Shown one piece after another: positions 1-15,193 of a DNA stretch of 64,000 nt. The stretch is from Candidatus Methylomirabilota bacterium. GTDB lineage: Bacteria; Methylomirabilota; Methylomirabilia; Methylomirabilales; Methylomirabilaceae. The translations under genes and the position numbers were made by a program. Under the pieces are notes generated by a model, which made no database searches, was not told the origin of the DNA, and saw nothing but the letters and a program-made list of their open reading frames with translations. How positions within the stretch are numbered: the stretch's first letter is position 1; every line of letters starts with the position of its first letter. The stretch covers positions 1 to 64,000 of the forward strand of contig PQAM01000006.1 of the NCBI GenBank assembly GCA_003104975.1. The letters are read 5' to 3'.

Positions 1-99
1 AAGCTCGGCTACCGGGCGACACCCGTGACAGTCATCGACGGCGAGGTCGTCGTCGGTTTCGATCGAGGGAAACTTCAGCGACTGCTCGGGCTCAGCTAA
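1..99 (+). CDS. Glutaredoxin-like protein, C-terminal end (partial)
   Basis: Only the last 32 residues are inside the window; the gene starts upstream. The segment ATPVTVIDGEVVVGFD followed by a short helix (KLQRLLGL) matches the end of glutaredoxin/NrdH-type thioredoxin folds, where the TxP stretch holds the cis-proline that faces the active site. It ends in TAA 29 bases before the next gene and points the same way as the zinc ribbon, merT and merP genes, so it is probably the first visible gene of that operon and may supply reducing power to it. The active-site CxxC (or UxxC) lies outside the window and cannot be judged. Confidence 0.7.
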   Translation, partial: KLGYRATPVTVIDGEVVVGFDRGKLQRLLGLS

Positions 100-128
100 G
101 GCCATTGCGGTCAGGTCTTGGAGGCAGG

Positions 129-413
129 ATGGTTACAGTCCATTGCAATGGATGCGGGCAGGAGATCGAGCTTCCGGCGGGGACGCGCTCAGGCGACATC
201 ATCGCCTGTCCTAACTGAGCGGGCCTCTCGCTCCGGGTGAGCGAGCAAGACGGTAACTGGTCAGCCGTGGTGCTCAAGACCGCGAGTTGCGCCGTCGGAG
301 ATGAAGTCGTCGTCCTTCCTGATGACGTGCGGCCCGGCGATATCGTTGAGTGCCACGGGATCACGCAACGGGTGACCTATGCTTACGGCGCCTATGCGCT
401 TGAGAAGATGTGA
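129..413 (+). CDS. Small zinc-ribbon-like protein with in-frame UGA (CPNU), candidate selenoprotein
   Basis: Reading ATG 129 to TGA 411 gives 94 residues if the UGA at 216-218 is decoded. The protein begins MVTVHCNGCGQEIELP and continues to IIACPNUAGLSLRV, so metal-ligand pairs are CxxC (residues 6 and 9) and CxxU (27 and 30), the layout of a zinc ribbon in which the last cysteine is selenocysteine. Coding character is unchanged after the UGA, with a sensible C-terminal half (SCAVGDEVVVLPDDVRPGDI) that runs to within 3 bases of the merT start. A 7-bp hairpin follows the UGA. Its function is unknown; position directly upstream of merT and merP suggests a role in metal handling. The alternative, a pseudogene broken by one nonsense mutation, is less likely given the same pattern in six other genes here. 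Confidence 0.75.
227..245 (+). promoter_or_regulatory. Putative bacterial SECIS hairpin for the zinc-ribbon UGA
   Basis: A perfect 7-bp stem CTCGCTC/GAGCGAG encloses loop CGGGT. The loop begins 15 nt after the UGA at 216-218, near the usual spacing for SelB-binding elements, and contains G residues. Confidence 0.6.
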
Positions 414-416
414 GGT

Positions 417-857
417 GTGAGAGACATGCGAATACCAGATGTGAAGTCCGGCTTTTTTGGGATGGTGTCCGCGGCCATCGCTTCACTCTGCTGTCTCCTG
501 CCGCTTGCGGTGATTGTGCTGGGGCTGGGCAGCGGGGCCTTCATGATGACCACCATGCAGTACCGGGCCATCTTCATCCCGGCGGGGATCATCGGGGTCA
601 GTCTCGGCTGGGCCTTTTATCTTCGTGAGCGCAAGCGATGCAATGCGCTTAGTTGCAGGATGTCAGGTGGACGATTGAATCTGGTATTCCTCCTGCTTGC
701 AACTGTTATTGTGGCCGGAGCCGTCGCACTGGACCAACTCCCGAACTTCACCGCCGACCTGCTGATGCGCGTCACATCCGGTGGGTCGGATACCATGCCG
801 ATGTCCGGCTCCGCAGTGGAGCATTCCAACATGAACCATGGAGGTGGGACCCAATGA
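417..857 (+). CDS. merT: MerT-like mercuric ion transport membrane protein
   Basis: Small inner-membrane protein of 146 residues if the GTG at 417 is used (ATG at 426 is the alternative). It has a first transmembrane helix containing the vicinal pair SLCCLLP (C25-C26), a second helix, then a cytoplasmic loop with CNALSC (C75 and C80) and a third helix. MerT proteins carry exactly such a CC pair in helix 1 and a second cysteine pair in the cytoplasmic loop, which relay Hg(II) from periplasm to cytoplasm. The C-terminal tail after helix 3 is longer than usual and rich in Met and His (MPMSGS, HSNMNHGGG), which could bind metal. Its stop overlaps the merP start (ATGA). It keeps cysteine while its partner MerP uses UGA. 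Confidence 0.8.
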   Translation: MRDMRIPDVKSGFFGMVSAAIASLCCLLPLAVIVLGLGSGAFMMTTMQYRAIFIPAGIIGVSLGWAFYLRERKRCNALSCRMSGGRLNLVFLLLATVIVAGAVALDQLPNFTADLLMRVTSGGSDTMPMSGSAVEHSNMNHGGGTQ

Positions 858-1162
858 AGGCTACGCGTGAGTACGATCGACGCACCTTCCTTTTCTGGGG
901 AATGGGAGCATCGCTTCTTCTGCTTCTGAGGGAGGCGACGGCCTCAGAGACCGCCGTCGTACGCCTGCGGATTGACGGCATGACGTGAGGCGCCTGACCC
1001 CTCGTGGTCAAGAAGGCCCTGGAAGGGCTGAAGGGCGTCACAAGCGCAGAGGTAAGTTTTAAGGACAAGCTCGCGCGCGTCACGTATGAGCAAGGCGTCG
1101 TGACCATCGAGCAAATGATCGAAGCGGTACGCAAGGCCGGGTTCCAGGCTAGCTTACAGTAA
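854..1162 (+). CDS. merP: MerP-like periplasmic HMA protein with UxxU motif, candidate double-selenocysteine protein
   Basis: ATG 854 to TAA 1160 gives 102 residues if two UGA codons (986-988 and 995-997, residues 45 and 48) are read through. The N-terminus has an RRTFLFWG stretch before a hydrophobic core, resembling a twin-arginine signal, and AxA-like sites before the mature part. The mature part is a complete heavy-metal-associated domain: VVRLRIDGMTUGAUPLV, then KKALEGLKGV, SAEVSFKDKLARVTYE and MIEAVRKAGFQA. In MerP and other HMA domains the motif is GMTCxxC, so both metal-binding cysteines are replaced by UGA, giving UxxU. Replacement of exactly these two residues and intact coding before, between and after them argue strongly for selenocysteine. 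Selenolates bind soft metals such as Hg(II) or Cu(I) more tightly than thiolates. Translationally coupled to merT. Confidence 0.85.
1015..1029 (+). promoter_or_regulatory. Putative SECIS hairpin for merP
   Basis: Stem GGCCCT/AGGGCT (five Watson-Crick pairs plus a terminal G-U) with loop GGA. The loop begins 23 nt after the second UGA and 32 nt after the first, so one element could serve both codons. Confidence 0.45.
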
Positions 1163-1190
1163 ACCCCTTGCAGAAGCCGCCAATGCCGGC

Positions 1191-1350
1191 CTAGTACTTG
1201 ATTGCAATAATACCCGTAACGTCATTCCCGCAGTCCTTAAGCGGGAATCCATTGTTTTTACTGGATACCCGCTCCCCGCTTTAAGCCTGCGGGGACAAGC
1301 TTCGCGGGTATGACGGTTTATGTGCGCTAACTTTCGCAAGTAAGCACTAG
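1191..1350 (+). repeat. MITE-like repeat, left copy (160 bp)
   Basis: The element starts CTAGTACTTGATTGCAATAA and ends with CTTTCGCAAGTAAGCACTAG. Its reverse complement matches the element at 15061-15193 almost base for base, apart from about 27 extra bases inside one internal hairpin. It contains two GTCATTCCCGC/GCGGGAAT-type hairpins. There is no coding content. It lies between the end of merP and the end of the barrel gene on the other strand. Confidence 0.85.
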
Positions 1351-1410
1351 ACTCGTGCCGGTTCAATGGGATTAAGATAAGTCTGTGCAGGATGCGCCAA
1401 GAAGGTCTGC

Positions 1411-2316
1411 TCAGAACACACCCCGAAATCCCCAGATTACGATCACGTCGGGCTTCAGGCCCAAGGGCCGCTCGAGGCCTCGGCTGATGGGGAGTTCTAC
1501 GGCTGCTTCAATGAGCCACTGTGGACCGAGAAAATACTGGAAGCCCGGGGCCAGGAAGAACTCGGTCCCGCCGGACTCGGACACGGAGGTGCCCCCAACT
1601 CTGTCCTCGGTTGCCGTCGTCCCCACCAGCTCCAGGCCCACATTAAACTGGGAGAGGTCCGGGATCGGCCAGTCGGGAAAGAGCTGATATTGAACAGTGA
1701 GGTCATAGGATACCATATCCCCCGCCTTGAACCCTCGTGCCGCGCTGTTGACCTTGCCCAACGCCCCGAGGTACAGTCCCCACCGCCGGCTGATCGAACC
1801 CAGATTGAGCCCCACCAGGCCATCGACCGAGCCTGACCCTGGCTGCAGGGCAGGCGGAAGCCTTCCTTGCGCATCGCGACGCCCGCTGTCACCCGTTGGA
1901 AGCTTCAGGCCGCCCAGCAGCGTGGCCTCAATGGTTCCATGGGGCCTGTCCTGCCGGAAGAAGCGGTAGAGGCCGAAGAGGCGAAGATCCCCGACCCCCT
2001 CGGCGCCACGCTGGCGGCCGTCCTCCAGCGTGAGATTTTTTGAGACATAGGGGAGACTCAACGCTACGTTGAGATCGCGGCGAGGGGAATAGAGCGCCAA
2101 GACTGGGGCCTCCCAGATGGTGAGGCGATTGCCTCCGTCACTCAGACGGGTGTACACCCCGAGACCCCGCACGGCTGTTCCAAGGGAAAAGAGCGTGGTA
2201 GGCCCGACGCCGACAATCGGATCAGCGAAGCTCGGGTCCGGCCCTGACACCCAGCAAACAGCAACCCATCCGAGAACGCGGATCCACCGACCTCTCCTTC
2301 CGTTTTTCGTTGCCAT
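1411..2316 (-). CDS. Outer-membrane beta-barrel protein, MetA/phenol-degradation transporter-like
   Basis: 301 residues with an N-terminal signal peptide (hydrophobic stretch to about residue 31, ending in SFADP). The rest alternates short polar turns and amphipathic strands (for example LSLPYVSKNLTLEDG, LYLGALGKVNSAARG, IEAAVELPISRG) and ends in an aromatic F, all typical of an outer-membrane barrel. It resembles the family annotated as transporter or putative MetA-pathway of phenol degradation. The start codon overlaps the stop of the HMA selenoprotein gene (TAATGG), so it is translationally coupled to it and to the upstream P1B ATPase. A plausible inference is the outer-membrane step of a metal export route. 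The substrate cannot be read from the sequence. Confidence 0.65.
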   Translation of the reverse strand: MATKNGRRGRWIRVLGWVAVCWVSGPDPSFADPIVGVGPTTLFSLGTAVRGLGVYTRLSDGGNRLTIWEAPVLALYSPRRDLNVALSLPYVSKNLTLEDGRQRGAEGVGDLRLFGLYRFFRQDRPHGTIEATLLGGLKLPTGDSGRRDAQGRLPPALQPGSGSVDGLVGLNLGSISRRWGLYLGALGKVNSAARGFKAGDMVSYDLTVQYQLFPDWPIPDLSQFNVGLELVGTTATEDRVGGTSVSESGGTEFFLAPGFQYFLGPQWLIEAAVELPISRGLERPLGLKPDVIVIWGFRGVF

Positions 2317-2825
2317 TACTGGACCTCAAATCGCTCAACCTGCGCCCACTCCTTCTCTTTCGGGATCATCCCTACGATGCTCACGCGCCTGCCATCCAAC
2401 TTCGCGGCCTTCCGCAGTGTCTCAAACTGCTCATCGGCCACAAGCGGGATGACTTGCTCCGTTCCCCGCACTTCGAATGCCGGACTGCCGTCTCGGGTAG
2501 TAAGCCGACCTACCGCCTCGAACCGGATCCAGGTCGGCGTAAACCCTGCATCCACGACGAGCTTCCTGAGCTTCTCCACCTCGAGTCGCTGGCCTTCCTT
2601 GAGCTTAATCTCTACCTGCGCCAACTCCAAGCTGACCTTTACCTTGTCCACGCCATCCAGGCGTGTTAGGGCCTTTCGGACCCCGTATGCTCAGGTGGCT
2701 CAGACCATCCCATCGACACCCATCTGGACCTGCTTGATCTCAGCCACGGTCAACGCGGGAAACGCTAACGCCAGGACCACAGCCAATCCGATCACAGCGG
2801 AGACCTGCGTTATTCGCTTTCCCAT
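2316..2825 (-). CDS. Exported HMA-domain protein with UxxU motif, candidate double-selenocysteine protein
   Basis: From ATG at 2825 (RBS GGAGGAGCGGT) to TAA at 2316 the frame encodes 169 residues if UGAs at 2700-2702 and 2691-2693 are decoded (residues 42 and 45). A normal signal peptide (MGKRITQVSAVIGLAVVLAL to about residue 30) precedes an HMA segment VQMGVDGMVUATUAYGVRKAL, then TRLDGVDKVKVSLE. This is the GMxCxxC motif of metallochaperones with both cysteines as UGA. After the HMA domain comes a second domain of about 80 residues (IRFEAVGRLTTRDG, EVRGTEQVIPLV, LDGRRVSIVGMIP) that looks OB-fold-like. It lies between the P1B ATPase and the barrel gene in one operon, so it may be a periplasmic acceptor of metal exported by the ATPase. 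The family of the C-terminal domain was not recognised. Confidence 0.82.
2649..2665 (-). promoter_or_regulatory. Putative SECIS hairpin for the HMA-Sec gene
   Basis: Stem CACGCC/GGCGTG (6 bp) with loop TGGAT, loop starting 31 nt after the second UGA, which is at the long end of the accepted spacing. A weaker alternative closer to the UGA (GGG-T-CC, loop GAAA, around 2672-2684) is also possible, so the true element is uncertain. Confidence 0.35.
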
Positions 2826-2864
2826 ACCGCTCCTCCTTTCTTAAGCCTCTACGCTGGAAGACAT

Positions 2865-5294
2865 CTACGAGTGATGCCCGACCCCCTTGATGGCCTCGAA
2901 GAAGTAGGCGCCTCGGCCCCACAGGGAATTGATGAAGATCGACGTCACGCTGGCCGCCATGGCCACCATGCCCCAGATGGGGTAGATCAATCCTGTCGCG
3001 GCGGCCGGAATCCCGACACCGTTGAACAGGAATGCGAGGAAGACGTTTTGCACCATCTTTCGGTAGCTGTACCGGCTGACCTCGTAGGCGTCGAGCACGG
3101 CGCCCAGCCGCTGGTTGAGGATGATCACATCGGCGGATTCGATGGCGATGTCGGCGCCGCTGCCGAAGGCGATGCCGACCTCGGCCTGCATGAGCGCCGG
3201 CGCGTCGTTGATCCCATCGCCAACCATGGCCGTACGGGCGCCCTGCTGAAGCGTGCGGATCATCGTCGCTTTCTCGGCCGGCAGCACGCGCGCATGCACG
3301 TCCGCGATGCCGGCGGCGCGGGCGAAATAACGCGCCGCCTCCTCGTTGTCGCCGGTGATCAAGCTTGTTCCGATGCCGAGCGCATGCAGGCGGCGCACCG
3401 TCTCCACTGCGTCGGGCCGCAGACCGTCGCCGAGCGCCAGCAGGCCCAGCAGTTCGTCTCCCCGCGCCACGCCGATCACGGTCAGCCCTTCCGCTTCGAT
3501 CGCCTTGATACGTCCGTCCTGCGGCTGCAGATTGACGGCGTGGCTCGCGAGAAAATCCGGGCTGCCGACCAGCACCCGCGAATGGTTAAGACGCGCCCGG
3601 ACGCCCTGACCCGCCACAGCCTCGAATTCCTGTACCTCCGGAAGCGCGATGCCGCGTTTGGTCGCCGCATCTACCACGGCGCGAGCCAGCGGGTGTTCAG
3701 ACCCGACCTCTGCAGCCCCAGCCAGCACGAGCAGTTCCTCTTCCGAGCACGCCAGCGGAACGATCGCCCGTAACGCGGGGCGACCCTCGGTCAGCGTCCC
3801 GGTCTTGTCGAAGACCACGCACTGCACCCGTCGCAGGGCTTGAAACGCCTCACCCGTGCGCATCAGCACGCCGCGTTCGGCCGCCTGACCTGCGCCCCGC
3901 ACGATCGACAGCGGCGCCGAGATCCCCACCGCGCAGGGATAGCCCATGACCAGCACACTCAGGCCGGCAAACATCGCTCGGCGCAGATCGGGGGCGGATC
4001 CGACGACCAGCGGGCCGAGCGCCCACACGAGGGTCGCGCCGGCCGCGGTGAGCAGCACCATCGGGGTGTAGACGCGCAGCACACGGTCCACCAGGTGCAG
4101 CAGGCCTGGCTTCAGCGCCCGCGCGCCTTCGACACTGCGGATCACCTGCCGGAGGAAACTCTCCTCACCCACCGCCGCGACCCGCACCAGCAGCGTGCCG
4201 CGACCGTTGAGGGAACCGCTCACCGTCCGGTCGCCCGGGCGCTTCTCCACGGGGAGCGGCTCGCCGGTGACGAGGGATTCGTCCACATCCGATTCACCCG
4301 ACTCGACCTGACCGTCCACCGGGACCCGCCCGCCCGGTCGAATGCGGACCACGTCCCCGATGCGCACCGCTTCGAGCGGCACTTCTTGCTCCGTACCATC
4401 CTTGACGATAGAGGCCACGTCAGGCTCCAGGTCCAGCAGCTTCTTGACCGCCTGCGAACTGCGGGTTTTCACGATCAGCGACAGCCATTCTGAGAAGATG
4501 TGATAGGCAAGGACCATCACGGCCACCGAGAAAAACGCGGTCGTCGGATAATCCGGCAGGTCGAAAGTCAAGCCGACCACGCCGCCGATCAGTCCTGCGA
4601 AGGCCCCGGCCTCAACGAGCACGTGCTGGTTCAGGATGCCGCGCCGCAGCGCCATGAAGCCCATGCGCGCAATGTGCCCACCCACGCCGAAGATGACGGT
4701 CAGGGCGAGCGCGCCGGCGAGCCACGGCGTGGCGCCGCCGAACGCGCCGCGCAACTGGAGAGCGTAGGTGCCTGCCCCGAATGCAGCGAGCAGGGCCGAG
4801 CCCGACAGCGCCCACCGCACGCCATAGCTGCGCAGGACCACGAAGGAGAACCCCACCATGCTCGCGATCGAAAACACACAGAGCACGAACCACGCGCTAT
4901 CGATCGGGTACCCGGCCAACCCCATCGCGGCGATGCTCATGGCCAACGCGGCGAGGAAACGCTCGCGCTCGCGCACCAGCGCGCGCTCTTCTTCCTCACA
5001 CGCACGCAGCTTGCGCGGATCGGAGATGGTGTAGCCGATATCCTTGAGCGTCTGCAACAGCTCCTCGGCTCTGGCAAGCGCGGGGTCGTACTCGATAAGC
5101 GCTTGTTCATGGGTCAGGCTCACCGCGACCTTGTCCACCCCGGTCTGCTTGCCCAGTGCCCGCTCGATGGTGCCGGTACACAACGAACAGTGCAGCCCGC
5201 CAATATGGGCGCGGATTCGCCGGTGGCCTGGTCGTTTCGAAGGCTCGTCGCTCCAGAAGCGCTGTGTAGATTCAACGGTCATTTCCATGCTCAT
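2865..5294 (-). CDS. P1B-type heavy-metal-translocating ATPase (Cu-like) with YPC motif
   Basis: 809 residues from ATG 5294, chosen because GGGAGG precedes it and it lies just after the merR stop. The N-terminal HMA domain has GLHCSLCTG (C36, C39), here with normal cysteines. P-type signatures are all present: [12 protein letters not shown] (actuator), [11 protein letters not shown] (phosphorylated Asp), SEHPLARAV (HP motif of the nucleotide domain) and [13 protein letters not shown]. The transmembrane metal motif reads MGYPCAVGI, so the usual CPC of Cu ATPases is YPC. The last helices contain LFNGVGIP and [12 protein letters not shown], which resemble the Cu/Ag group, and the protein ends GVGHHS. 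Expected to export a soft metal ion from the cytoplasm. It shares an operon with merR upstream and the UxxU protein and barrel downstream. The exact metal is not certain. Confidence 0.88.
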
Positions 5295-5305
5295 GTGTGC
5301 CTCCC

Positions 5306-5719
5306 TTACTGCTTTCTCCCATCCGATGCGAGGGTCTCCAGGATCGGACACTCGCTGGTGGGGCCGCGACCTCGACAGGCGGCAGCCAGCTTCATCAGCG
5401 CCGTCTTCATCTGTTCCAGGTCGCGAACCTTTGCGTCGATATCGGCGATTTTGGCTTGCGCTCGCCTTTTAATGTCTGCGCTCGTCGTCTCGGGATCGAT
5501 ACGCAGAGACAGGAGTTCCACGATTTCTTTCAACGAGAACCCCAACTCCTGCGCGCGCCTGATGAACCGGATCCGCTCGACGGCCTCGAGGGGATACTGA
5601 CGGTACCCGGATTCGCGTCGAGGCGGCTCGGGTATGAGCCTTCGCCGCTCGTAGTAGCGAATCGTTTCGATATGCACATGGGCTTGCTTCGCCAACTGCC
5701 CTATGGTCAATGTCTGCAT
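5306..5719 (-). CDS. MerR-family metal-responsive transcriptional regulator
   Basis: 137 residues with the MerR winged-helix start ([35 protein letters not shown]) and a long dimerisation helix. The effector end has AACRGRGP and SECPILETL, corresponding to the two C-terminal Hg ligands of MerR (Cys117 and Cys126). The position of the third ligand, Cys82, is Ser in PETTSADI, so the classical three-cysteine Hg site is incomplete. It could therefore sense another ion or bind metal differently. It is the first gene of the operon with the P1B ATPase, 11 bases upstream of that gene, and a MerR-type operator precedes it. Confidence 0.85.
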
Positions 5720-5741
5720 GTCCTCACCTCAACTCAATTAT

Positions 5742-5773
5742 AAGATAGACCCTGCACCTAGGTACGGAGTCAA
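5742..5773 (-). promoter_or_regulatory. MerR-type promoter/operator upstream of merR
   Basis: On the minus strand TTGACT (5773-5768) and TATCTT (5747-5742) are separated by 20 bases, the overlong spacer typical of MerR-controlled promoters. The spacer holds a dyad centred on CCTAGG: GACTCCGTACCTA against TAGGTGCAGGGTC, matching at 10 of 13 positions. The left arm TTGACTCCGTAC is very close to the classical mer operator as I remember it. It lies 23 bases upstream of the merR start, so the regulator should control its own operon. Confidence 0.75.
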
Positions 5774-5858
5774 GGGGTATGGAGAACTTTTTATGGATCT
5801 CCGGTTTGCACTGAACTCAGAAAGACTATTAACCAGGCGGGAGCGTAACCCTAGGACC

Positions 5859-6968
5859 TCACGGTTGGAAGTGCGAAGGGATGGGTGATGAAGCCCGCCA
5901 GAGTTGGGTCTGGGGATAAAACCCCTTCCACGCAAACCAGAAGGCCCTGGTGGTTGGGAGCTGGCGTAGCCGGCTGCCGCTGAGCTGACCTTTGATGGCC
6001 GTGCCGGTGAGCGCCTGCCACGTTGAACCGGTTTGCCGGTCCTCCATCACCAGGTCGCCGTTCACCTCACGCAAGCTCGTAAACTCCAGGACCCGCTCCC
6101 CCATTCGCCTCGCGAAGGCCACCGCCGTCGCCTCTTTCGCCGAGAAGGCCACCAGGATCGGTTCGCCGCTCACCATATCCTGCACGAGGGGCTGGCGGTT
6201 CAGATCGCGATAGGGATAGGCGACTCGCGTGTCGCCCAGACTCAATCCCAGGACGAACTCCTTGCCGGGGAGGACGGCGTCCGGATTCCTGGTTCTGAAG
6301 ATCCCCAGCTTCGCCTGGTCTTCGAAGTAACGCTGGTAGGTGTTACGGGTTCCCTCGACCCCGAAGGCGCTCTGCTTCGAGAGGACGAGGGTATCAGGAT
6401 GGAGCCGTCTCCACTGCTTCCAGGTGGTGTGGGAAGCCGGATAGGGTGTCAAGGTCTGCCCTCTCAGCGGCCCGACAATGGCGCTTCCTGTGACGTGGCT
6501 CCAGAGGCTGTCGGTTTCGCGATCATACATGACCAAGGCGTCCTTCCAAAGCCGTCCACTGACCCCGAAGGTGATCGGCTTGCCCTGGTGCGTCGGCCGG
6601 ACATACACGATGCCCGTAAAGCAGAGGGGTCACCAGGTCACGGCAATGGGGAGGGTCCCGAGCTGGTCGTTCACAATCTCATGGTGGTTGAGTTGCCAGA
6701 GTGAGTAGGCCTTGGCGACCTTCCCATCGGTGAGGCCGAGGACCGGCTCCTCCGGCTGCATGACCCGGTCGCCCTCGGTAGCGGAGACGAACGTGGGATG
6801 ATCAATGGCGGGGATCGCGTCTTTCGGTAACACGGTCATGATGGGTGCGCCGTTCACAACCTCACTGAAAGGCCCCGCCGTCCCCGCCAAGGCCGGACCC
6901 GAACCCCCCATCGAAGCCGCGAAGGCCACTAAGCCCACGAAAAGCCACTTCCACGTTCTCCGTACCAT
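5859..6968 (-). CDS. DUF3179 protein with in-frame UGA in the TxCPLC motif, candidate selenoprotein
   Basis: 369 residues from ATG 6968 (preceded by GGAGGATGAA) to TGA 5859 if the UGA at 6630-6632 (residue 113) is decoded. It has an N-terminal signal peptide with a hydrophobic core, ending about GPALAG. The central signature reads LPIAVTWUPLCFTGIVY; the DUF3179 family has VTYCPLC at this place, so the first cysteine is UGA. The rest carries family features: FGVSGRLWKDALVMYDRET, SLWSHVTGSAIVGPLRG, and the DAVLPGKEFVLGL and DRQTGSTWQALTG repeats. The function of DUF3179 is unknown; a CPLC or UPLC pair suggests a redox or metal-binding site in the periplasm. It is the last gene of the long minus-strand series that starts at arsM. 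A 7-bp hairpin follows the UGA. Confidence 0.82.
6598..6616 (-). promoter_or_regulatory. Putative SECIS hairpin for DUF3179
   Basis: Stem CGGGCAT/ATGTCCG (seven pairs, one G-U) with loop CGTGT containing GU. The loop begins 20 nt after the UGA at 6630-6632. Confidence 0.5.
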
Positions 6969-7018
6969 TTCATCCTCCAACCTGTGGGCCGTTTCGACCA
7001 TCTCTTCCTGGTGTCCTG

Positions 7019-7190
7019 TTTCTGAAATTCGTTGCATATTTCTGGCCGTCATTCCGCCCCCGATCAGGTCGGGGGCCGCATAGCGGGCGCGAGCCGGAAT
7101 CCAGGAAAATACGCGAGTTCTGGATTCCCGCTTTGGCGGGAATGACGATACAGAGAGCCCCGACCTCTTCATCGAACTTCTGACCCAGGA
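7019..7190. repeat. Dispersed repeat, copy A (about 170 bp)
   Basis: The sequence runs from TTTCTGAAATTCG through two GTCATTCC/GGAATGAC-bounded hairpins to AACTTCTGACCCAGGACA. The reverse complement aligns along its length with 50719-50876, including the outer ends TCAGAAGT and CGAATTTCAGA. It fills the gap between the DUF3179 and MerA-like genes. Confidence 0.7.
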
Positions 7191-7192
7191 CA

Positions 7193-8611
7193 CTAGCCAA
7201 GACGCATGAGCAACTGAAGGAACCCCTTGAGCGGCCCACTGAACAGCTTTTCCCGGTAGTACTGATCGGCCGCCCGGCGCACGCCCTCGGCGAGGGTGGG
7301 GTAGGTATGGATGGTCTGTGCGAGCGCGCCGACCGGGAGCCCCTTCCGCATCGCGAGGATCACCTCCTGGATGAGGTCGCCGGCCTGAGGGCCCAGGATA
7401 TGGGCTCCCATGATCTTCCCCTTCGGCGTACAGACAAGCTTTATCAGGCCTACCGCCTCCCCGTCGCAGAGGGCTCGGTCCAGGTCTCCAAAGCTGTACC
7501 GATAGACCTTCACATTTCCGAACTGCTCCCCGGCTTCGACCTCGGTTAAGCCGACCCTGGCCACCTCGGGATCGGTGAAGGTGCACCAGGGGACGGCTGA
7601 ATAGTTCGCCTTGCTCTTGAACGGAAACAGCGCATTGCGGACGACCAGACGGGCCTGATACTCTGCCACGTGGGTAAAGAGGAGCTTCCCTGTGATGTCG
7701 CCACAGGCCCAGATGTTCCGAGCGGTGGTCCGTAACGTTTCGTCCACAATGATCCCCTTACTGTTATAGCTCACCCCTGCCGCCTCGAGGTTCAACCCCT
7801 CCACATTCGGCCGCCTGCCGGTCGCCAGGAAGATCTCCTCGGCCCTAAAGGTCACCGCTACACCGCTGCACTCTCCGTGGACAAGCTTCTGAGTTCCATC
7901 CTTCTCTACTCGAAATGCCTTGGTGCAGGTGTGGATGTCGATCCCCTCAGTCCGGAGGATCGCCTCCAGCGCCTGGGCGATCTCTTGCTCTTCCCGAGGC
8001 AGGATCTGCCCCACCACCTCCAAGACTATTACCCGGACGCCAAAGCGCGCGAAGAGCTGGGCGAACTCGATTCCAATGGGCCCTGCCCCCAGGATTACGA
8101 CCGATCGAGGGAGATGCGAAAGCGTCAAAGCGCTGACGTGGTCTAGGAAGCCGACCTCCTCCAACCCCTCAATCGGAGGGACAGCAGTCCTTGAGCCGGT
8201 GGCGATGACGACCTTCTTGGCGGCAATCCGCTCCCCTCCAACCTTGAGCTCTGTAGGGGAGAAGAAGCTCGCCTGGTCGGAAAAGAGCGTGACACCGAGC
8301 CCCTTAAACCGCTCCGGGGAGTCGTGCTTTCCTACCTGCTGTTGCACCTGTCGCATCCGGTCCATCACCTTCACAAAATCGAAGGAGACCTCGGGCGTAT
8401 TCAGGCCAAAATCGGCTGCCCGGCGCATCAGGTGCAGGACTTTCGCGGAGCGGATCAGGGCCTTGGAGGGGACGCAGCCCGTGTGTAGGCATTCGCCCCC
8501 AAGCCGGTCGCGCTCGATGAGCGCGACCTTGACGCCGAGGGACGCAGCGCCGGCAGCAGTCACAAGCCCCGCCGTACCGCCCCCGATCACGGCAAGATCA
8601 AAGGTGTCCAT
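7193..8611 (-). CDS. MerA/dihydrolipoamide-dehydrogenase-like flavoprotein disulfide reductase
   Basis: 472 residues of the class I pyridine nucleotide-disulfide oxidoreductase family. It has an N-terminal FAD site (LAVIGGGTAGLVTAAGAA), redox-active pair GGECLHTGCVPSKAL (C41 and C46), an NAD(P)H site (VVILGAGPIGIEFAQ), second FAD motif (NIWACGDITG) and C-terminal dimer motif HTYPTLAEGV. It lacks the N-terminal HMA domain and the C-terminal vicinal cysteine pair that define mercuric reductase, and ends in FLQLLMRLG. It is therefore a MerA-related reductase of unproven substrate; another disulfide, selenide or metal compound is possible. Its start overlaps the stop of the glycosyltransferase gene (TGATG). 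Confidence 0.85.
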   Translation of the reverse strand: MDTFDLAVIGGGTAGLVTAAGAASLGVKVALIERDRLGGECLHTGCVPSKALIRSAKVLHLMRRAADFGLNTPEVSFDFVKVMDRMRQVQQQVGKHDSPERFKGLGVTLFSDQASFFSPTELKVGGERIAAKKVVIATGSRTAVPPIEGLEEVGFLDHVSALTLSHLPRSVVILGAGPIGIEFAQLFARFGVRVIVLEVVGQILPREEQEIAQALEAILRTEGIDIHTCTKAFRVEKDGTQKLVHGECSGVAVTFRAEEIFLATGRRPNVEGLNLEAAGVSYNSKGIIVDETLRTTARNIWACGDITGKLLFTHVAEYQARLVVRNALFPFKSKANYSAVPWCTFTDPEVARVGLTEVEAGEQFGNVKVYRYSFGDLDRALCDGEAVGLIKLVCTPKGKIMGAHILGPQAGDLIQEVILAMRKGLPVGALAQTIHTYPTLAEGVRRAADQYYREKLFSGPLKGFLQLLMRLG

Positions 8612-9336
8612 CAGATCCTCCTTGCGCTTGAAGCGGGCCGTTTAACATCCGATGAAGGCGCGTGGCCGTAGTAGAGCCGGTAGAGTAGATCAGAGCCCAC
8701 ACCGACGAAATAGAGAAAACGAAGAGTCCACATCAGCAGGATGATCCGGAAGATTCCCTCCCGCTCCCACTTCCGCGCCGATGTCGTGACCTTCGAGCGA
8801 AGACATGCCATCCTCCCCATCTTTTTCAGCCGTTTCGTCAGCTCCACATCTTCCATCAAAGGGATGTCAGGATACCCTTCCAACTCTTCGAATGTCTGCC
8901 GTCTCACAAAGAGGGCCTGATCACCGGTGCAGATCTTCGTGAGGCGCGAGCGAAGGTTGATAAAAAAGGCGATGACCGTGAAGACCGGGCGAGGATTATC
9001 AAATCGGATGTCGAAGCGTCCAGACACAATATCGGGATTGCTCACGGCTTCAAGGATCGCCGCTTCTGCCCCGGCAGGCAGGAGCGTATCAGCATGGAGG
9101 AAGAGCAGGCTCTGCCCCTTCGCCACCTTCGTGCCTGCGTTCATTTGCCTGGCCCTCCCCCGCTCGCTCGAGAAGAGCCTCACATGGGGAAACCGGCGCA
9201 CAACCGCGCTGGTCTCATCCTCACTTCCCCCGTCCACGACAATGACTTCGACCCCGGGGCAAACCACCCGGAGATGCGGAAGCAGGCGCTCAAGATTCTC
9301 TGCCTCGTTGAGGACCGGAATGATCACGCTTAGCAT
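8611..9336 (-). CDS. Family 2 glycosyltransferase, TIGR04283 type (rSAM/selenodomain-associated)
   Basis: 241 residues. The GT-A start MLSVIIPVLNEAENLERLLP, the nucleotide-sugar part VEVIVVDGGSEDET, and ERGRARQMNAG and LLFLHADTLLP identify the short glycosyltransferase group named transferase 2, rSAM/selenodomain-associated (TIGR04283). The motif YPDIPLMEDVELTKRL and a C-terminal membrane-contacting stretch (IFRIILLMWTLRFLYFVGVG) complete it. That family is named for co-occurring with radical SAM proteins and selenium-containing domains, which agrees with the selenoproteins and ArsS in this operon. Substrate unknown; arsenosugar or envelope glycan modification is a guess. Confidence 0.85.
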   Translation of the reverse strand: MLSVIIPVLNEAENLERLLPHLRVVCPGVEVIVVDGGSEDETSAVVRRFPHVRLFSSERGRARQMNAGTKVAKGQSLLFLHADTLLPAGAEAAILEAVSNPDIVSGRFDIRFDNPRPVFTVIAFFINLRSRLTKICTGDQALFVRRQTFEELEGYPDIPLMEDVELTKRLKKMGRMACLRSKVTTSARKWEREGIFRIILLMWTLRFLYFVGVGSDLLYRLYYGHAPSSDVKRPASSARRI

Positions 9337-9348
9337 CTCTCCTGCCTC

Positions 9349-10113
9349 CTAACGGTCCCCGCTTTCCACCGACCGGAGCACAATGTCGTCGTAGTACGCC
9401 ACAGCGGACTCACCGGTATTGTCGGTGTCGGTCATCAGCGCGATACCGGCGATCCGAGGAGGTTCTGCGCCGAAGAGGCGCTTATAATCGGCATAGAGGT
9501 TTCGCTCCTCGAGCACCCACCGCCCCACGTTTTCCGCCCTACTCTCCACAGCGATCATCTTCGCCCGATCGGTGTAGGCGTTATCGATGGCCGTTCCCCT
9601 GGGGAGTCGGTTGTCCCAGATGTAGTTAATGACATGCTTTGGCGGGTACTCGCCATAGATGAGCTTGTAAGTCCCATAGCTGGTCCTCTCCCAGAGTGTG
9701 GCGTTTCGAGCGTCATACTGGAAGGCCACGTACACGCGAGCTGGGTAGTCGTCGCCTTCTTTGCGGCGGGCATCTCCCTTGGCGAGGATATTCTCCACCT
9801 TCCATCGCCAGGAGAGGATCTGGTAGACCTTTGGATCGAGGTCCAGCGCCTTGTACAGGCCAGAAGCCGATGCATGGCTTTCCGCTTTCACGATGTAGTT
9901 GTCACCCTCCTGAATCACGGTGTAACGGGTCTTCGCAGGGATCTTCCGGAATGTCAACGATGTCCAGCCGTGGGGTAGGCCCCCTGGATCGGTTGGAGGG
10001 CCGAATCGGTCCACCACCAGCAGTTCCCCGCCAAGACCCCAGGCGACCGCACAGAGCGAGAGTACGGCGACAAAGGCGGAGGTGTAGATGATGCTCCGTT
10101 GTGCTCTTCTCAT
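9349..10113 (-). CDS. DUF3047 exported protein
   Basis: 254 residues from ATG 10113 (ATG 10137 is also possible but would overlap the TVP38 stop by 17 bases). It has an N-terminal signal or anchor (IIYTSAFVAVLSLCAVAWGL). The body matches DUF3047 in pattern: VVDRFGPPTDPGGLPHGW, then SASGLYKALDLDPKVY, ILSWRWKVENIL, YPARVYVAFQYD and IAGIALMTDTDNTGESA, ending with YYDDIVLRS. The fold is likely a carbohydrate-binding-like beta sandwich; no enzyme function is known. Located between TVP38 and the glycosyltransferase in the same operon. Confidence 0.75.
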   Translation of the reverse strand: MRRAQRSIIYTSAFVAVLSLCAVAWGLGGELLVVDRFGPPTDPGGLPHGWTSLTFRKIPAKTRYTVIQEGDNYIVKAESHASASGLYKALDLDPKVYQILSWRWKVENILAKGDARRKEGDDYPARVYVAFQYDARNATLWERTSYGTYKLIYGEYPPKHVINYIWDNRLPRGTAIDNAYTDRAKMIAVESRAENVGRWVLEERNLYADYKRLFGAEPPRIAGIALMTDTDNTGESAVAYYDDIVLRSVESGDR

Positions 10114-10120
10114 CACCGGT

Positions 10121-10831
10121 TCACCGCAGCAGGTCATCCGTGGCTGGGCTGGTTTTGTTCAGCCATCGGGGAATAAGCGTAACCAAGACCAGCAAGGCCC
10201 CCGCAATCCCCAGGTAAAGCAAAGTCCGCTGTATGTCCCCGCCCCCTTCTGAGAGGGCGCCACCGGCGAAGGTGTAGGCCGCTGTCCCTGGCAGCATGCA
10301 AGGCCAGGAGGTCAGGAGATGGCTCCAGAAGCCGATCCGGGTTAGACCGTAGGCGTAGTTTTGAAGGTTGAAGGGAAACAGGGGGACGAGACGGGTAATC
10401 ATGACAATCTGCCAGCCGTACCGGGCCACCGCCTGGTCGATCTTCGCGAGCCGGCGGTTCTCCGATACCCACCGCTCCACCATCCCCCTCGCGCCATAGC
10501 GGGCGATGAGGAAGGTGAGCGCCACGCCGATAGTGGAGGCGATGGAGACATAGACGGTTCCCCAGATGGGACCGAAGGCGACGCCACCCAGGACCGTGAT
10601 CGGGAGGCCAGGCACGAAGAAGATGACCGCCAGGATGTAGCCCGTGATGAAGACGAGGGGAGCTAACGATCCAAAACTGTCGATCCACACCTTTAGATAG
10701 GCAAGATTTTTCAGGCTGAGGATCTCCTGGAGGCCGAAGGCCCTGGCCAGGAACGCCCCTGCCAGGACGATCCCCGCCAGCAGGAGCAACCGTTCCCACG
10801 GTCTTTTTGACCTGTGAACGACTTCACTCAA
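10121..10831 (-). CDS. TVP38/TMEM64 family membrane protein
   Basis: 236 residues with about five to six membrane segments. The signature VMITRLVPLFPFNLQNYAYGL, then GFWSHLLTSWPCMLPGTAAY, is the conserved region of the TVP38/TMEM64 (SNARE-associated, DedA-related) family. Members are thought to act in lipid or small-molecule movement across the inner membrane, but the substrate is not known. Its ATG overlaps the last codons of the GrdB-like selenoprotein gene, so the two are translationally coupled. Confidence 0.85.
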   Translation of the reverse strand: MSEVVHRSKRPWERLLLLAGIVLAGAFLARAFGLQEILSLKNLAYLKVWIDSFGSLAPLVFITGYILAVIFFVPGLPITVLGGVAFGPIWGTVYVSIASTIGVALTFLIARYGARGMVERWVSENRRLAKIDQAVARYGWQIVMITRLVPLFPFNLQNYAYGLTRIGFWSHLLTSWPCMLPGTAAYTFAGGALSEGGGDIQRTLLYLGIAGALLVLVTLIPRWLNKTSPATDDLLR

Positions 10832-11621
10832 AGCGATGCCTCCTCCACCGATACCCCGGCTCCAGGATGGTCCCCGGTTCGGTCATGGTCTCCAGGGCCT
10901 GCAGCGCATCAAGCAGGATCGTGCGCTGCTGCTTGACAGCAAAGGCTTCGCCGAGGGGATGGCCGAAAGGGTAGTGAAGGTAAAGGGCCCGTGGCGGCTT
11001 CACCTTCTTCGTCACCTCTTTCTGGAGCGTGATCCCGATCGTCGGAATCCCTTCCGCCTCGATGGCACGCTGCAGCAGGCCCACGGCCTGGTTGCAGAGC
11101 CCTCAGGCCGGGGTGAGGACCACAGCCTCTGCCCCGTCGCGCCGCAGGCGACGCGCTACCTCAGGTGCGGTCTGCTGTACCAGCGTCTTCACGTGCGGGC
11201 CGTCAATATGCCCCATGAAGCCATAGACAAAGGGGGCGATCCCCCCGATCAGCCCTTCGGCCTTGAGCTCCTTCAGTCGGTCCAAGGGCAGGACCACATT
11301 GAGATCTTTGTCTGCCGCTGAGTGGTCATAGTATTTGTGGGTGATCGTCAGCTCTTGTGGCTTTGTGTCCGCCGAAATGACTCGAAAGCTGGGATCGCCG
11401 TTCGGATCGTCCATGTCAAAAGGGGGTTGAGCCTTCAGGTGGACCCCCGCCGTAGTCACGAGGCCGATCACACTCTCTCGAATCGGCTTCTTCACAAGCG
11501 TCCACGGGATCCCTTCCGTCTCCACGAAACGATGGCGCCTGGCCCAGCGCTCGGAAAGCCAGGGCAGACGCTTGTAGAGCTGCACCATCAGCACGTTGGT
11601 CAGATCCTGAAGCCGTCCCAT
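10824..11621 (-). CDS. Short GrdB-like (glycine/sarcosine/betaine reductase family) protein with in-frame UGA, candidate selenoprotein
   Basis: 265 residues from ATG 11621 if the UGA at 11103-11105 (residue 173) is decoded. The region VARRLRRDGAEAVVLTPAUG followed by LCNQAVGLLQRAIEAEGIPT matches the selenocysteine region of selenoprotein B (GrdB/PrdB), where a UxxC pair follows a strand ending in T. Other family features are RVISADTKPQELTITHKYYD, LPLDRLKELKAEGLIGGIAP and YPFGHPLGEAF. It is much shorter than classical GrdB (over 400 residues), matching the group annotated as glycine/betaine/sarcosine/D-proline reductase family selenoprotein B. It lies between the PiT transporter and TVP38, so reductive cleavage of a C-As, C-Se or C-N bond in an arsenic- or selenium-linked pathway is possible; this is inference. 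Confidence 0.85.
11070..11097 (-). promoter_or_regulatory. Strong putative SECIS hairpin for the GrdB-like gene
   Basis: Lower stem CTGCA/TGCAG (5 bp), a small internal loop (AC against C), upper stem CAGGCC/GGCCTG (6 bp) and apical loop GTG. The loop starts 18 nt after the UGA at 11103-11105. This is the best bipartite SECIS-like structure in the window. Confidence 0.7.
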
Positions 11622-15060: not shown

Positions 15061-15193
15061 CTAGTACTTACTTGCGAAAGTTAGCGCACATAAGCCGTCA
15101 TACCCGCGAAAGCGGGTATCCAGTAACATCAATGGATTCCCGCTTAAGGACTGCGGGAATGACGTTACGGGTATTATTGCAATCAAGTACTAG
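15061..15193 (-). repeat. MITE-like repeat, right copy (133 bp), inverted relative to the left copy
   Basis: It starts CTAGTACTTACTTGCGAAAG and ends CAATCAAGTACTAG, so both ends carry the inverted terminal sequence CTAGTACTT. Apart from a shortened central hairpin and a few changes it is the reverse complement of 1191-1350. It lies upstream of arsM. Together with the left copy it brackets a block in which all genes are on the minus strand. Confidence 0.85.

Follow-up and report, generated by a model that had tools for sequence, protein, structure and literature searches.

The window, a stretch of 64,000 nucleotides of Methylomirabilota DNA, encodes a selenoprotein of 169 amino acids (2319–2825, minus strand; hereafter HMA-OB) that carries a signal peptide, an HMA domain with a UxxU motif and a C-terminal domain predicted to be OB-like. 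We put at about even the chance that this protein works in the periplasm, where its selenolates would carry a soft metal (Hg(II) or a Cu(I)-like ion) on a route from a P1B-type ATPase through HMA-OB to the outer membrane. The case is built on a recodable gene, the Sec machinery of the source genome, constraint at the RNA level, the predicted fold and conserved operon partners.

A reading frame with two in-frame UGA codons

Read on the minus strand from 2825 to 2316, where a TAA stop (2316–2318) ends it, the frame is open except for two TGA codons (2702–2700 and 2693–2691); its translation is MGKRITQVSAVIGLAVVLALAFPALTVAE...GVDGMVUATUAYGVRKAL... (169 aa). The original prediction of a second UxxU HMA gene with the motif GMVUATU at 2316–2825 is borne out by this frame, by the two TGAs and by the Pfam HMA profile PF00403, which matches at 44.6 bits (cut-off 24.8); the first UxxU HMA protein of the window is encoded at 854–1159 (plus strand) and reads GMTUGAU. 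Upstream of the HMA-OB start the DNA reads AAAGGAGGAGCGGTATG, with a Shine-Dalgarno sequence, AGGAGG, at 2832–2837 (minus strand). The ATPase gene ends 39 nt upstream, and the HMA-OB stop overlaps the ATG of the barrel gene (TAATG). For this region the list of standard-code open reading frames holds a 111-aa fragment alone (2651–2316), the part after the second UGA; standard gene calling thus cuts the gene, and the genome annotation misses it.

The family comprises 14 full-length members, including the window protein, from nine Methylomirabilota genomes and one Tectomicrobia genome. Ten of them read GMxUxxU and four GMQCSLU (CxxU), so that each position is Cys or Sec in all 14: the first TGA (2700–2702, minus strand) is matched by UGA or, in the four, by Cys, and the second (2691–2693, minus strand) by UGA throughout. 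Such conservation was one of the two points that the original prediction hinged on. A related HMA-only protein, in genome G010, reads GLACPFC. Outside the phylum, a scan of 84,980 species genomes, made with narrow peptide patterns that may miss other relatives, found just the one Tectomicrobia locus, and four more Tectomicrobia-group genomes yielded none.

Constraint is also seen at the nucleotide level. Among seven UxxU members, synonymous codon identity at identical residues is 0.89–0.92 at 6–17 codons past the first UGA, against about 0.60 elsewhere; for the 20-codon zone the permutation P is 0.002, and 2 of 120 sliding windows scored higher. The same silent-site protection is found in MerP(U) genes directly past their UGAs. 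The protected zone of HMA-OB folds as two tandem hairpins, A (GGGUCC-GAAA-GGCCC; 2669–2683, minus strand) and B (CACGCC-UGGAU-GGCGUG; 2649–2665, minus strand), the latter with three pairs changed on both sides. Over the 14 sequences 93.5% of cells are paired (80% when shuffled) and 13 cells have double-sided changes (3.7 when shuffled), a signal abolished by sliding the partners. As this covariation represents few independent events, between groups plus one within the third group, we regard its support for the hairpins as good but not overwhelming. In the group that has Cys first and UGA at the second position only, hairpin B is kept and hairpin A is weakened, the outcome to be expected were each UGA served by a separate signal. 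We read the tandem hairpins as putative bacterial SECIS elements; a comparison with Rfam gave no match to any known SECIS family.

The source genome (3.0 Mb, 99.99% complete) encodes SelA, SelB and tRNA-Sec (UCA), and tRNA-Sec scores above its cut-off in seven of the eight carrier genomes tested. A Methylomirabilota MAG with 63 predicted selenoprotein genes has been reported (PMC13188914). We infer that Sec is inserted in the cell at both HMA-OB UGAs. Decoding as Trp or Gly was rejected: the sole tRNA-Trp seen has a CCA anticodon, and the UGAs are confined to Cys-equivalent sites.

A second tRNA-Sec-like RNA with a UCA anticodon and U73 is encoded in the source genome (locus L010, G000:C3:50105-50202, minus strand). 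The loop of its variable-arm hairpin resembles a Cys anticodon loop (CUGCAAA), and near-identical copies occur in G001, G008 and G014 only, i.e. in 4 of 60 genomes including the source genome. U73 is a Cys identity base, and the RNA is a candidate tRNAReC/ReU. It is the one point in favour of UGA being read as cysteine by a tRNA-Sec-like tRNA of the tRNAReC type. Against this stands its absence from the UxxU carriers G007, G012 and G029, where ordinary tRNA-Sec is present; decoding as Cys by a tRNA not common to the other carriers was therefore rejected as the explanation of the UGAs and has in our estimate little probability. In this strain the RNA may supply Cys at most part of the time. The other doubt about the coding sequence, that a chance frame, a pseudogene or a sequencing error surrounds two true stops, can appeal to the truncation by standard gene calling, but it is refuted by 14 conserved copies, silent-site constraint and covariation, and we give it practically no weight. 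With UGA/UGA or Cys/UGA kept in all 14 members and protected silent sites, the open frame is far beyond chance.

Fold of HMA-OB and comparison with known families

HMA-OB was modelled with AlphaFold2 from a seven-sequence alignment. Mean pLDDT is 84 and exceeds 90 over most of residues 30–169, that is, through most of both domains, in agreement with the exported Sec-containing HMA protein with an extra C-terminal OB-like domain that had been proposed. The HMA domain (residues 30–98; 2532–2738, minus strand) is supported by the Pfam match and by the model, and its closest solved structure is MerP (1osd), ranked first in a PDB search (E = 1.4e-5). In the C-terminal part (residues 96–169; 2319–2540, minus strand), which belongs to no known family, strands 96–111, 114–119 and 125–128 are followed by a helix (132–140) and by strands 147–155 and 161–168. 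Since the fold search returned only matches driven by the HMA domain, the assignment of this part as OB-like rests on the topology of the model. Searches of Pfam, NCBIfam, PDB and plasmids gave no sequence relatives of this domain, all matches covering the HMA part only. Across the family it has no conserved Cys, His or Met, which argues against a second, CusF-like metal site there and for a docking role. Most likely the domain docks to a partner, our best guess being the adjacent outer-membrane barrel.

Several known systems resemble HMA-OB in part. The NCBIfam model NF041115, the UxxU metal-binding (seleno)protein earlier called 'putative mercuric reductase' in work on the Olavius algarvensis delta-1 symbiont, shares the HMA domain with UxxU for CxxC and matches HMA-OB residues 28–74 with E = 1.3e-12. 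However, it spans 74 positions and a single domain, to which HMA-OB adds the OB-like domain and the barrel partner, and the score of 47.6 bits does not reach the cut-off of 95. MerP (TIGR02052) is likewise an exported HMA protein and the best structural match, but it has Cys for Sec and no OB domain (44.9 bits, below the cut-off of 92.55). The heavy metal transport selenoprotein NF045683, which is MerT/CopZ fusion-like, has an HMA-like domain as well; it is a membrane MerT fusion, whereas HMA-OB is exported and scores 27.5 bits against 375. With CusF and Cus tripartite export the common element is the idea of a periplasmic OB-fold metal carrier linking inner- and outer-membrane parts, yet the OB-like domain of HMA-OB has no conserved Met, His or Cys and the window operon has neither an RND pump nor a CusC-type channel.

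Sec-containing MerP has been described (PMC2398784). The original prediction knew of no described family with this arrangement. This held for the HMA-OB layout and not for the UxxU HMA domain itself, which is known from NF041115 and from selenoproteins listed as 'putative mercuric reductase' UxxU (PMC9312934, PMC13188914). Fusion to an OB-like domain, partnership with a barrel and the YPC form of the ATPase are new: our literature search found no description of a protein joining HMA and OB-like domains, of its link with a barrel or of a YPC P1B ATPase, part of which might be covered by Haft and Tolstoy (2025) on selenoprotein neighbourhoods.

Operon partners and metal context

As originally placed, HMA-OB stands between a metal ATPase upstream (2868–5351, minus strand) and an outer-membrane barrel downstream (1414–2316, minus strand). 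The barrel is probably Phenol_MetA_deg-like. The barrel protein of the window by itself has no Pfam match, so that this call rests on its homologues, 7 of 12 of which match PF13557 (best 1e-11); its structure model (pLDDT 51) was too poor for a fold search. We know of no metal-exporting PF13557 member.

The ATPase/HMA/barrel trio expected in relatives was found, since a barrel adjoins full-length HMA-OB in 12 of the 13 testable loci. Two gene orders occur, HMA-OB then barrel in the window clade and barrel then HMA-OB elsewhere. A barrel profile run over 95 genomes of the phylum gave 15 matches. The 11 best (E ≤ 1e-124) each lie next to HMA-OB, and a further two are cut off by the end of a contig. 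The remaining two come from G010 and are partial or divergent; one has the Cys-only HMA protein as its neighbour. By comparison, at 13 loci of HMA-only selenoproteins near YPC ATPases the stretches read held no barrel (Fisher P about 3e-6, a value that ignores relatedness and how far contigs reach). At one locus (G007 C48:42972) HMA-OB and the ATPase are present and no barrel was found within the stretch read; at another (G029 C64) barrel and HMA-OB are present and no ATPase was found in the 12 kb read.

The ATPase of the window has a Cys-type HMA domain and reads YPC where CopA-type enzymes read CPC. It scores above the cut-offs of both models for CopA-type P1B ATPases (TIGR01525, the P1B heavy-metal ATPase model, 538 bits, cut-off 346; TIGR01511, 433 bits, cut-off 397) and exceeds copper as well as cadmium model cut-offs, but differs from P1B-1 (CopA) enzymes, which are defined by CPC in TM6, in having MGYPCA there (3931–3947, minus strand). 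MGYPCA is found in all readable HMA-OB-linked ATPases; at other loci most P1B ATPases carry CPC, and CSC occurs in two. An exact DNA pattern for the motif matched in 18 of the 95 phylum genomes, whereas the reversed control pattern gave a single match, and the YPC ATPase is commoner in genomes with HMA-OB (6/9 versus 12/86, P = 0.001). The YPC subclass reaches beyond HMA-OB carriers, often together with a MerR regulator.

Both the regulator and the neighbours bear on the identity of the metal. A MerR-family regulator (5309–5719, minus strand; Ser80, Cys115, Cys124) has a serine at the position equivalent to CueR residue 77, together with two C-terminal cysteines, a CueR-like signature confined to the window clade, with a MerR-like spacing between the cysteines; the regulators of most relatives have Cys where the window clade has Ser. 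In CueR, Ser at that position excludes divalent ions (PMC10028694, PMC11591864). Because regulator types differ among the relatives, the metal is not fixed by them. Mercury-like genes surround the operon in the window: a MerT-like membrane protein (417–854, plus strand; below family cut-offs), the first UxxU HMA protein, which is MerP-like (NF041115, 92.1 bits, cut-off 95), and a MerA-like flavoprotein (7196–8611; 418 bits, cut-off 454). At G029 C64, MerT, MerP(U) and MerF (the last above its cut-off) directly precede the barrel and HMA-OB on the same strand, and an ArsP_1 permease is also present, instead of the ATPase. Weighing the mercury-like neighbours against the Ser regulator and the copper and cadmium scores of the ATPase, we speak of a soft metal, most likely Hg(II) or a Cu(I)-like ion.

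Other features of the region were recorded. ArsP_1 permeases of HMA-OB loci lie at L048:4253-5284, L052:5326-6351 and L049:11957-13003. The MerP-like protein at 854–1159 has a twin-arginine-like signal (DRRTFLFWG), unlike HMA-OB, and export after folding is possible. A LysW-like zinc-ribbon protein (129–413, plus strand) has a UGA at a would-be zinc ligand (CPNUAG), which is kept in the C10 copy, G012 and G029, the G029 copy having a second UGA in the first knuckle. Adjoining the MerA-like flavoprotein is a DUF3179 protein (5862–6968, minus strand; WUPLC), which belongs to a known selenoprotein family, and at 10824–11621 (minus strand) a PrdB-like protein of the D-proline reductase family, below its family cut-off, contains an in-frame UGA (PAUGLC). 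The island at 1–10788 is present twice in the source genome, the second copy (G000:C10; L047:7786-18979) being 84–89% identical at the DNA level, with a glutaredoxin-like UxxC selenoprotein at the left end of the duplicated island. An intergenic repeat occurs at 1196–1349 and 15061–15188, and also twice near the C10 copy.

Proposed function and competing explanations

In the mechanism proposed for the window operon, the MerR regulator would switch on the YPC-type P1B ATPase, HMA-OB and the barrel, and the ATPase would drive the ion, Hg(II) or a soft one like Cu(I), out of the cytoplasm and into the periplasm. There the HMA domain would grip the metal with the two selenocysteines of GMxUxxU; MerP, Atx1 and CopZ have two cysteines at the equivalent place. 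HMA-OB would bind the ion, keep or buffer it and hand it on, probably towards the outer membrane, with the OB domain bringing protein and metal to the barrel. Metal export through the barrel is plausible. A fuller version, in which a YPC class of P1B ATPases, HMA-OB docked by its OB domain and a dedicated Phenol_MetA_deg-type barrel form a selenium-dependent trans-envelope export system, a selenolate relay from the cytoplasm to the outside, is offered as tentative only, its probability being well below even.

Two rivals to the export carrier are serious. HMA-OB could be a periplasmic trap whose selenolates lock up Hg(II) or Cu(I) in a very tight complex, the barrel being a mechanistically unrelated stress-operon porin. 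Hg(II) is held more tightly by selenolates than by thiolates, which fits a sink more readily than a fast carrier, and one HMA-OB locus lacks the barrel. A pure trap, however, needs neither an OB domain nor a barrel, and nearly all loci have both, in either of two gene orders, so that we consider it unlikely, though deserving of attention. Alternatively, the barrel would admit Hg(II), HMA-OB and MerP(U) would pass it to MerT or MerF, and a MerA-like reductase would destroy it. Mer-type uptake of this kind draws on the one-strand order MerT-MerP(U)-MerF-barrel-HMA-OB in G029 and on the MerT, MerP(U) and MerA-like genes flanking the window operon; the G029 copy, with ArsP_1 and no ATPase, means that uptake or buffering is also possible. 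Yet the partner in most loci is the ATPase, an exporter, and the MerT and MerA-like proteins of the window score below NCBIfam cut-offs, which makes uptake in our view the less probable of these two. That HMA-OB is a redox protein (a diselenide protein or oxidoreductase) and not a metal carrier would agree with the view that Sec proteins are for the most part redox enzymes (PMC9312934). But the protein has an HMA fold with its motif placed in the metal-ligand loop, it resembles MerP most closely in structure and it lies among metal genes, all of which leaves this reading very improbable.

The conserved gene set suggests selenium-dependent movement of toxic soft metals (mercury, copper) across the cell envelope. 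A pair of cysteines is the basis of metal chaperones; in this lineage selenocysteine has taken the place of both, putative RNA signals for it have been kept, and the protein has become tied to a barrel of its own and to an unusual ATPase. If the export carrier is the true reading, soft metals would have an exit from bacteria with an outer membrane that needs neither RND nor TolC machinery, and what selenium does in mercury and copper handling could be tested directly.
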